Shown here: in pieces, positions 34,847-36,889 of the stretch
Layout of the letters: the number at the start of each line of letters is the position of its first letter
Position numbering within the stretch: position 1 is the stretch's first letter
NCBI GenBank assembly: GCA_003220535.1
Contig: QHSU01000054.1
Coordinates: forward strand, 310,001-374,000
DNA: 64,000 bases
DNA from: Candidatus Rokuibacteriota bacterium
GTDB taxonomy: Bacteria; Methylomirabilota; Methylomirabilia; Rokubacteriales; CSP1-6
Direction: 5' to 3'
Translations under genes and position numbers: made by a program
Notes under the pieces: generated by a model
The model's database searches: none
The model's input: only the letters and a program-made list of their open reading frames with translations
What the model was told of the DNA's origin: nothing

Positions 34847-35854
34847 CTATTTCTTCCCGAGCTCGGTGACCGCGCGGTCCCGATACGAGAAGTTGAAGAG
34901 CTTGGTCGGCGGCAGCAGGTCCTTGTACTTGAGGTAACCCAGCTCGGCGCTCAAGCGCTGCATCGAGTCGAGCACGGTGGGGTCCATGTCGAGATTCGGA
35001 TCGAGCACGTGGGCACGCGCGCGCCGGATCACGTCGGCCTTGGCGCCGGTGTACTTGACCATCAGATCGATGTTGCGTTCTTGCTTCCACCCGTTGTCCA
35101 GGGCGAGATCGCGCGCGGCCTTGACGTACGCCAGCATGACCTTGTGCGCCAGGTCAGGGTCCTTGGCCGCCCAGTCCTTGTTCCAGAAGATGGCGGTGAT
35201 CGGTGTGGCCCGAGCACCCGCCGGGCGTGGCAGCGGCCGCACCGCGATCCCGCGCTCCTCGCCGAGCGTCGGGAAGGGCTCGGTGAGGATCGCCGCCTCG
35301 ATGGCTCCCGACTCGAGGGCCGGAACCATGTCGGGGAAGGGCATGATCTTGATCTGCACATCGCGCAAGGTTAGACCATCTCTCTTGAGAACCTGGTCGA
35401 GCATCCACTCGACGGCCGCGCCGCGGACGTTGAGCGCGATGGGCTTGCCCTTGAGATCACCGATGCGCTTGAGCTCCTTTTCCCAGGACGCCTTGCGTAC
35501 GGTGAAGTAGTCCTCGACGTAACCCGAGTGGAGTGGCGCCACGAACTCCACCGGCAGCCCCGACGCTACCGCGTTGAAGCCGGCAGCGCCCATACCGGCC
35601 CCACCAACGTGGAGCTGGCCGGTAGCCACCTGAGACAGGATCTCGGGCCCACCGCCCAGACGGACCGCCTCCACGCCGATGCCCGCAGCGGGAAGATGCC
35701 GGTCGGCCATGATGTAGAGCGCCGCGAAGGAGTCGGAGGGAATGTAGCCGATCCGGACTGTGGCCTTCGTCTGGGGCGATACCGGTGCGGCGCCGGCCAG
35801 CAGCCCCAGCGCGACCACGGCCAGCCCGACTCCTGTTCTGCAGAGAGAGCCCAT
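34847..35854 (-). CDS. NMT1/THI5-like ABC substrate-binding protein
   Basis: The 335-residue protein (ATG 35854 after AGGGAGG) has a signal peptide (VGLAVVALGLLAGAAPVSPQ) and NMT1 features: VRIGYIPSDSFAALYIMADR, GQLHVGGAGMGAAGFNAVAS and DLKGKPIALNVRGAAVEWML. The residues EPFP near 200 match the ligand-hinge motif seen in taurine/nitrate/thiamine-precursor binding proteins. No permease is adjacent on the same strand. The importer at 37040-39361 on the other strand has no binding protein of its own and might be its partner. The ligand is unknown. Confidence 0.84.
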   Translation of the reverse strand: MGSLCRTGVGLAVVALGLLAGAAPVSPQTKATVRIGYIPSDSFAALYIMADRHLPAAGIGVEAVRLGGGPEILSQVATGQLHVGGAGMGAAGFNAVASGLPVEFVAPLHSGYVEDYFTVRKASWEKELKRIGDLKGKPIALNVRGAAVEWMLDQVLKRDGLTLRDVQIKIMPFPDMVPALESGAIEAAILTEPFPTLGEERGIAVRPLPRPAGARATPITAIFWNKDWAAKDPDLAHKVMLAYVKAARDLALDNGWKQERNIDLMVKYTGAKADVIRRARAHVLDPNLDMDPTVLDSMQRLSAELGYLKYKDLLPPTKLFNFSYRDRAVTELGKK

Positions 35855-35963
35855 GGAGACCTCCCTAACTGTGACCGCGCATCGGCCGGCGGGGCCCCAG
35901 CCCCGCGACGGCTGCGGCGCGCTACAGCGTGAGGGCTCGCGTCCGCGGGTAGGTTTTCGCCGG

Positions 35964-36191
35964 TCAGCCGAGAGACCGGACGAGCCGAGCGACTTCGCCG
36001 GGCTGCGGCACGCGACCGGCTCGACGCTTGGAGAAAACGGCACGGCCATCCACGATCACGGTCAGCTCTCCGAAGCCGCCCCAGCGGATCTTCGCCGGCA
36101 CCTGGAGCGCCTCCTGCAGCTCGTCGCGGAGGCGTACCGCCTCGCGTCTCAGGTCCATTCAGACTGCGCAGCGCTTGATCTCGACGTTCAT
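35964..36191 (-). CDS. SelW-like Rdx-family selenoprotein, UGA-encoded selenocysteine at codon 11
   Basis: Read from ATG 36191 the product is 75 residues: MNVEIKRCAV, then UGA (36161-36159), then MDLRREAVRLRDELQEAL, a second strand LTVIVDGRAVFSKRRAG and VPQPGEVARLV. This is the whole SelW/Rdx thioredoxin-like fold, with C8-A-V-U11 in the place of the family's CxxU/CxxC redox motif after the first strand. Reading UGA as stop would leave a 64-residue protein lacking strand 1 and both redox residues. A SECIS-like hairpin begins 13 nt after the UGA. Only a weak ribosome site is seen, and no Sec-machinery gene lies in the window. Confidence 0.82.
36125..36146 (-). promoter_or_regulatory. bacterial SECIS-like hairpin after the in-frame UGA
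   Basis: On the minus strand CGC-GAGGCG (36146-36138) pairs with CGCCTC-GCG (36134-36125, one bulged C) around a GUA loop. The loop begins 21 nt after the UGA and its first base is G. Both features agree with the published description of bacterial SECIS elements (loop 16-37 nt after UGA, G among the first loop bases). It is inside the coding sequence, as in other bacteria. Confidence 0.65.
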
Positions 36192-36373
36192 CAATCGCGT
36201 TTTTAAACACAGATCGTCATCGAAGGCAAGGGCGGCCTTGACGGCCCTCAGTCCTCGCTGTATATGGCACCAGGGAACCCTCGGCGTCGCGACCGAGTTA
36301 TGCGCACGGCACTCCACGACGCAGGCTGGCGAGCCGCGTCGATCCCGAACGCCCACTCACAAGGAGGAGACCC

Positions 36374-36889
36374 ATGAGGATGCAACGGCTCCTGTCCCTG
36401 GTCGTCGGCACCCTGCTGGTCTTGGCCGCATCACTGGCGAGCGCTCAGCAACCAGCCGCGCCAGCGGCAGCGCCACCACCGCCGCCGTATGGCACCCCGA
36501 TCAGCCTCGACCACGCCAAGAAGGTCATGGCCGGCGCCGAGGCCGAGGCGAATAAGAACAAGTGGAACGTCGTCATCGTCGTCCTCGACTCGGGTGGCAA
36601 CCTCGTGATGCTGCACCGCATGGACGGCGCACAGTTCGGCAGCATCGACGTCGCGAAGGAAAAGGCGTACTCCGCCGTGGCCTTCCGCCGGCCCACCAAG
36701 GCGTTCGAGGACGCCCTCGGGCAGGGCGGTGTGAATTTGAGAGTCCTCAGGCTACCTGGCGCGAGCCCCCTCGAGGGCGGACTGCCGATCGTCGTCGACG
36801 GCAAGCTCATCGGCGCGGTCGGTGTCTCGGGTGTCCAGGCCACCCAGGACGCACAGATCGGCCGGGCCGGAATCGAGAGTCTGAAGTAG
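36374..36889 (+). CDS. secreted GlcG/HbpS-like haem-degrading-family protein (DUF336)
   Basis: The 171-residue protein has a signal peptide (LSLVVGTLLVLAASLASAQ), a Pro/Ala-rich linker, and the GlcG/HbpS fold: ISLDHAKKVMAGAEAEANKN, VVIVVLDSGGNLVMLHRMDGA and SIDVAKEKAYSAVAF, ending with GVSGVQATQDAQIGRAGI. Family members bind haem or cobalamin or sit in glycolate and propanediol loci, and the ligand here is unknown. AAGGAGGAGACCC precedes the ATG. A strong GC hairpin follows the stop. Confidence 0.83.
   Translation: MRMQRLLSLVVGTLLVLAASLASAQQPAAPAAAPPPPPYGTPISLDHAKKVMAGAEAEANKNKWNVVIVVLDSGGNLVMLHRMDGAQFGSIDVAKEKAYSAVAFRRPTKAFEDALGQGGVNLRVLRLPGASPLEGGLPIVVDGKLIGAVGVSGVQATQDAQIGRAGIESLK

Follow-up and report, generated by a model that had tools for sequence, protein, structure and literature searches.

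Evidence for a divergent SelW-like selenoprotein gene in a rokubacterial genome, and relatives with two in-frame UGA codons above one hairpin

Introduction

SelW-like proteins, in which selenocysteine (Sec) stands in a CxxU motif, were the most abundant family both in the Sargasso Sea data, with 48 genes (PMC1088965), and in the Global Ocean Sampling data, with 427 genes (PMC2398784). The bacterial SECIS model, as given in the text of a 2026 review, has a loop of 3-9 nt, an upper stem of 4-16 bp and a distance of 16-37 nt between the UGA and the loop, and it also needs a G within the first two loop positions (PMC13188914). The same review cites a Methylomirabilota assembly for which 63 selenoprotein genes were predicted; its table enters SELENOW-like proteins as CxxU, with one Sec, and gives UxxU for the bacterial Prx-like, NF041115 metal-binding and FmdB-like proteins (PMC13188914). 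UxxU forms of SELENOW have been described in two eukaryotes, amphioxus and Ostreococcus lucimarinus (PMC7539508).

The gene studied here lies in a stretch of 64,000 nucleotides (hereafter, the window), which corresponds to positions 310001-374000 of contig C1 in the genome bin (7.18 Mb, 162 contigs, 8.15% contamination) of a rokubacterium from soil. Rokubacteria belong to the GTDB phylum Methylomirabilota. An earlier note on the window had proposed that it contains a gene for a SelW-like selenoprotein with a UGA-encoded Sec. We examined the gene, its motif, conservation and hairpin, the Sec machinery and the predicted fold by sequence analysis and computation. A TGA found in every gene compared, the machinery encoded in the genome bin and a hairpin within the published SECIS constraints support the proposal. 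The gene is almost certainly a real SelW-like selenoprotein gene, in which SelB and the hairpin would direct Sec insertion at the UGA, and the product would be a small thioredoxin-like thiol-redox protein.

Results and discussion

Reading frame, fold and family of the gene

In this reading frame, the standard ORF list contains only a 64-residue version, which starts from the ATG after the UGA (35964-36158, minus strand) and lacks the redox motif; this is the conventional call that the earlier note had anticipated. The span that the note gave for the full gene was correct, and the strand, which it had left unstated, is minus. When TGA is translated as Sec, the minus strand encodes MNVEIKRCAVU-MDLRREAVRLRDELQEALQVPAKIRWGGFGELTVIVDGRAVFSKRRAGRVPQPGEVARLVRSLG*, a product of 75 residues, and the plus-strand translation of 35964-36191 is unrelated to this Rdx/SelW-like product. 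The features are listed in Table 1. A short T/A-rich stretch, GTGTTTAAAA, at 36201-36210 of the window (minus strand), lies 9 bases before the ATG and has similar counterparts, similarly placed, in several same-genus relatives; it may be a -10 promoter element, in which case the leader would be very short.

Table 1. Coordinates of the selenoprotein gene, its elements, its neighbours and its UxxU relatives. Positions refer to the window except in the last row, where they refer to the named loci.
Feature	Position	Strand	Details
SelW-like selenoprotein gene	35964..36191	-	75 residues + stop; translation with TGA as U, Pfam Rdx, 17 related genes
Stop codon TGA of the SelW-like gene	35966-35964	-	
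Redox motif C8-A-V-U11	36159..36170	-	Sec codon TGA 36161-36159
SECIS-type hairpin	36125..36146	-	Upper stem 36143-36138 with 36134-36129; loop GUA 36137-36135; lower stem CGC/GCG, with a bulged C
NMT1-like ABC substrate-binding protein	34847..35854	-	Pfam NMT1_2, 47.3 bits; 109 bases downstream of the selenoprotein gene
HbpS-like protein, divergently oriented	36374..36889	+	Pfam PF03928, 124.5 bits
UxxU relatives	L035 1501-1716; L039 1114-1329; L040 1498-1719; L057 1501-1719		Two in-frame TGAs nine bases apart and one downstream hairpin

Translation, Pfam and the predicted fold bear out the claim that UGA read-through gives a Rdx/SelW-like protein of this length with C-A-V-U after strand 1. 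The read-through product scored 28.5 bits with the Pfam Rdx model (PF10262; cut-off 22.6) over profile positions 1-73 of 74, and the model was matched at E <= 0.001 by 16 of the 17 aligned members. A genome-wide Pfam Rdx search returned other Rdx genes and not the window gene itself. The AlphaFold2 model, made from nine sequences (pLDDT 93.4, pTM 0.80), has a strand at residues 3-8, a helix from residue 12 and the C8-A-V-U11 motif directly after strand 1. Foldseek matched it at E <= 0.001 to 22 PDB chains from 3dex, 2obk, 2ojl, 2fa8, 2p0g, 2oka and mouse SelW (2npb), with TM-scores, by query length, of 0.83-0.86 to the bacterial chains and 0.65 to mouse SelW. The entries 2fa8 and 2p0g are titled selenoprotein W-related, and 3dex, 2obk, 2ojl and 2oka are presumably Rdx proteins too. 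A sequence profile search of the PDB placed 2ljk, 3dex and 2fa8 at the top (E 0.0007-0.0036).

Like the bacterial SelW-like (SELENOW-like) proteins of PF10262, the window protein has one Rdx domain of about 75 residues with CxxU after strand 1, an in-gene SECIS-type hairpin and a fold matching 2fa8, 2p0g, 3dex and 2npb. It differs from them in that the motif is introduced by KRC or RRC instead of YC, in belonging to a clade of its own and in scoring under the NCBIfam cut-offs. The best curated NCBIfam model, NF041051 SelTWH_Campy, was matched at E <= 0.001 by all 17 members scanned, yet the window protein, at 41.3 of the required 88 bits, is not a member by its cut-off; the score for TIGR02174 CXXU_selWTH was 23.3 of 34.2 bits. 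Because of these scores, annotation may overlook the protein. In a tree of 34 Rdx rows, which were selected by hand, the window gene fell within a clade of 20 rows (support 100/98) whose members carry [KR]RCxxU or RRUxxU, not YCxxU. Three of these rows come from the phylum of the acidobacterial gene L047, namely L047, L074 and L076, the last of which forms a long branch. By these comparisons, the window gene adds a new and somewhat divergent member to a selenoprotein family already known from bacteria, and it belongs to the [KR]RCxxU clade. A conventionally called 64-residue ORF would thereby be recognized as a truncated selenoprotein, and a divergent clade added to SelW.

In the mechanism that we propose, the ribosome would meet the UGA at codon 11, where SelB carrying Sec-tRNA(UCA) would bind the hairpin just downstream and insert selenocysteine. 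Translation would then continue to the UGA at codon 76, to which no hairpin was assigned and which would act as the stop. The product would be a one-domain thioredoxin-like oxidoreductase in which a selenenylsulfide after strand 1 would join Cys8 to Sec11; it may serve as a small thiol-redox catalyst or carrier. We infer Sec insertion in vivo, the selenenylsulfide and the redox role from the known family.

Neighbouring genes and the role of the product

Between 34847 and 37843, the selenoprotein gene is flanked on one side by the NMT1-like gene and on the other by divergent genes for HbpS-like and ABC-transporter proteins; this arrangement is conserved, wholly or partly, in the six same-genus loci examined. 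An operon with the NMT1-like gene was tested on these six, all of the other same-genus loci except L027: the NMT1-like gene adjoins the selenoprotein gene in five and is present as a remnant in the sixth, and no function was drawn from this. At L045, from another genus of the family, none of seven neighbour proteins was matched at E <= 1e-8, and at L069-L071, from the genus with UxxU genes described below, the sole neighbour matches were ABC-transporter parts, at 32-57% identity. A phage or plasmid origin was rejected, as no tblastn match was found at E <= 0.01 in plasmid or phage collections. A base-composition scan of the window for other read-through UGAs returned eight candidates, none with a Cys nearby, a result that says little since the scan missed the known gene too.

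Among the alternatives to our reading, the one that survives best accepts the SelW fold and the Sec residue and assigns the protein to the binding or delivery of selenium or a metal(loid), not to general thiol redox. The KR or RR directly before the motif, where the other SelW-like genes compared have Tyr, would suit such a role, as would the fact that the genus-conserved neighbour is an ABC substrate-binding protein. However, the protein has the motif (CxxU) and the fold (Rdx) of a thioredoxin-like redox protein, and we regard this role as unlikely. A thiol-redox function is the one we prefer.

Conservation on both sides of the UGA

The remaining alternatives concern the UGA itself. We compared codon by codon 18 genes of the window's type, of which 17 are rokubacterial, the window gene included, and one is the acidobacterial L047. 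Whether column 11 holds U or C in related genes was a check that the earlier note had suggested, and TGA encodes this column in all 18. Three codons before it, Cys is encoded in 14 genes and a second TGA is found in 4. The start column reads ATG in 12 genes, GTG in 3, TTG in 2 and ATC in 1 (L028), the start of which is unsure for that reason. The codon after the UGA is ATG in 5 of the 18, and the genes do not all begin at this downstream ATG with no CxxU or CxxC upstream, the pattern that the note had named as speaking against its proposal.

Among eight same-genus sequences, pairwise mismatch at codon positions 1/2/3 was 0.60/0.56/0.55 upstream of the start, 0.25/0.07/0.20 from the start to the UGA and 0.19/0.03/0.31 after the UGA; for position 2 alone, the value fell from 0.555 ahead of the start codon to 0.068 over the ten codons that precede the UGA and 0.031 immediately past it. 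By this pattern of substitution, the sequence on both sides of the UGA is coding.

These data bear on the reading in which translation simply stops at the UGA and the gene begins with the next ATG, giving a 64-residue Rdx-like protein without a redox motif. This version is the one in the ORF list, and the fragment scores 22.9 bits with Pfam Rdx, just above the cut-off of 22.6. Yet the downstream ATG is present in fewer than a third of the genes, the ten codons ahead of the UGA show the conservation of coding sequence, Cys or a second TGA stands three codons before the UGA in every gene, and the fragment would be left without strand 1 and the active site, all of which makes a plain stop very improbable. 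The onset of coding-type conservation at the upstream start codon, together with the sparse downstream ATG, argues that the 64-residue ORF is a truncation. Least probable of all, to the point of being negligible, is a degenerate or mis-sequenced Cys gene, its TGA a mutation or assembly error: TGA is one base from the Cys codons and the sequences are metagenome assemblies, yet the same TGA recurs in 18 of 18 genes from different genomes, and codon position 3 is the most variable downstream of it.

For the selenoprotein gene as we read it, the distribution was then as follows. It was present in 16 of 57 genomes of the family, its own included, 13 hits having one in-frame TGA and 3 having two. 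When 95 genomes of the phylum were searched with a profile (E <= 1e-8), 25 matches were obtained in 24 genomes, 24 of the matches carrying TGA; the sole match that lacked it, in G064, was a classical YC-type gene with CTQC. Within the window's genus, one genome (G018) gave no match to the gene at the thresholds used, though its selB passed the cut-off.

The SECIS-type hairpin

The hairpin has the sequence CGC-GAGGCG-GUA-CGCCUC-C-GCG. Counted from the UGA, its lower stem begins at base 13 and its upper stem at base 16, and 21 bases separate the UGA from the GUA loop. The earlier note had described this geometry accurately, with a start 13 nt after the UGA, a loop at 21 nt and a leading G. Checked by eye, the 6-bp upper stem, the GUA loop and the 21-nt distance fall within the published SECIS constraints. 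An Rfam scan of 35800-36500 at E <= 10 returned two matches, both far below their gathering scores.

The loop G (alignment column 25) was found in 18 of 18 sequences. Over these sequences, 83.3% of cells were paired, as compared to 36.8-52.8% when the partner strand was slid. The upper stem was paired in 91.7% of cells and the lower stem, which is poorly kept in relatives, in 58.3%; two of the eight pairs counted were unpaired in 9 and 12 sequences. With the innermost pair open in 9 of the 18, the loop there becomes one of five bases with the G second.

Changes on both sides were seen in two upper-stem pairs, in a single sequence for each. When 500 shuffles were scored, values as high as the real ones were reached by 3 for pairs changed on both sides, 14 for further pair types, 19 for the covariation score, 52 for the percentage paired and 66 for cells changed on both sides. 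In the structure slid by -2, two-sided changes affected as many pairs (4) and a larger number of cells (6 vs 4). The covariation suggested by this alignment is thin.

Folded alone, as a hand-chosen 28-nt stretch, the hairpin had an energy of -13.7 kcal/mol (z -2.55), and with 54 nt of its own context the minimum-energy fold in the window was a different structure (-20.2 kcal/mol, z -1.49). In a synonymous-recoding control with 1000 recodings per sequence, in which the codon usage of six window genes was applied to all 18, the real hairpin of each of the 18 sequences was stabler than the mean of its recodings (mean z -1.43), and a fraction of 0.04-0.23 of the recodings per sequence was as stable as the real one. 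Part of the conservation of the hairpin is due to coding, since it overlaps the conserved peptide EAVRL. The third base of the Leu21 codon, which is paired, is C in 17 of the 18 sequences; in the remaining one it is G, opposite a C. Third positions vary in the codons for Ala18 and Val19, which lie beside and within the loop. Taken together, the signal for the hairpin in these sequences is consistent but modest.

Selenocysteine machinery

The earlier note held that its reading implies a Sec system in the organism, and a check of the genome found selA, selB, selC (tRNA-Sec) and selD. Absence of selB or selC, which it had named as evidence to the contrary, was not seen, as both were over cut-off in the genome bin. 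The tRNA-Sec scored 69.8 bits, the only one of 12 matches over the cut-off, and was called by ARAGORN as tRNA-SeC with anticodon tca (UCA). The scores for selA and selB were 592.7 and 354.3 bits. These three genes lie within 5 kb of one another on contig C107, not on the window's contig; selD (334.9 bits; G000:C1:110596-111537, plus strand; L067) is on the window's contig C1. Among 14 named control genomes, 5 passed the cut-off for tRNA-Sec, 1 for selA, 2 for selB and 2 for selD, which indicates that the protein models are specific, more so than the RNA model. In the family, selB was over cut-off in 51 of 57 genomes, and the Sec trait thus belongs to the lineage, despite the contamination of the bin.

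The selD gene on C1 is of the selenoprotein type too, with an in-frame TGA in a CAGU motif. Two more SelW-like Rdx genes were seen in the same genome (L001 1501-1710 and L002 1501-1704), with CGEU and CVVU motifs and one in-frame TGA each.

Relatives with two in-frame UGA codons

In 4 of the 17 rokubacterial genes compared, TGA is also found at the first Cys of the motif (UxxU), the window gene itself being CxxU. The four span two families: L035, L039 and L040 come from three genomes of one genus, and L057 comes from another family of the order. Between any two of the three same-genus genes there are 8-17 synonymous and 8-12 nonsynonymous codon differences, most of the differences being at codon position 3, so these genes are not copies of one error. 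The selA gene was over cut-off in all four UxxU genomes and selB in the three of the UxxU genus. By alignment, the loop of the UxxU hairpin has five bases and begins 20 nt past the second UGA and 29 nt past the first; both distances are within the published SECIS range.

If both UGAs are read, one bacterial SECIS would direct two Sec insertions in succession to yield a diselenide SelW, which would more likely have had two origins than one, separate from the eukaryotic UxxU SELENOW; we consider this reading probable, with appreciable room for doubt. The UxxU label requires two changes on the tree, and 0% of 200 bootstrap trees join the four genes. A single old UxxU origin followed by losses appears less likely than two origins on this tree. 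In 396 genomes of L047's phylum, 37 matches were found in 35 genomes, 36 with one TGA and one partial match without; UxxU was not seen among the 30 genes of that phylum, L047 included, that were checked residue by residue.

As in the UxxU SELENOW of amphioxus and Ostreococcus lucimarinus described in PMC7539508, two Sec residues would form a UxxU motif in a SelW protein; the rokubacterial genes differ in that their UGAs lie 9 nt apart above a single bacterial in-gene hairpin. With the Prx-like, NF041115 and FmdB-like families in the table of PMC13188914 they share two UGAs in UxxU, and the domains differ. A bacterial UxxU SelW was not found among the literature matches listed. Two-Sec UxxU motifs have already been published for other families of bacterial proteins, which leaves the SelW family and the repeated origin as what would be new here.

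With the UxxU relatives it becomes possible to ask, in natural sequences, at what distance from its hairpin a bacterial UGA can still be recoded and whether two UGAs can share one SECIS. When folded alone, the hairpin formed in all four UxxU genes, and with 63 nt of context L057 preferred a shifted pairing.
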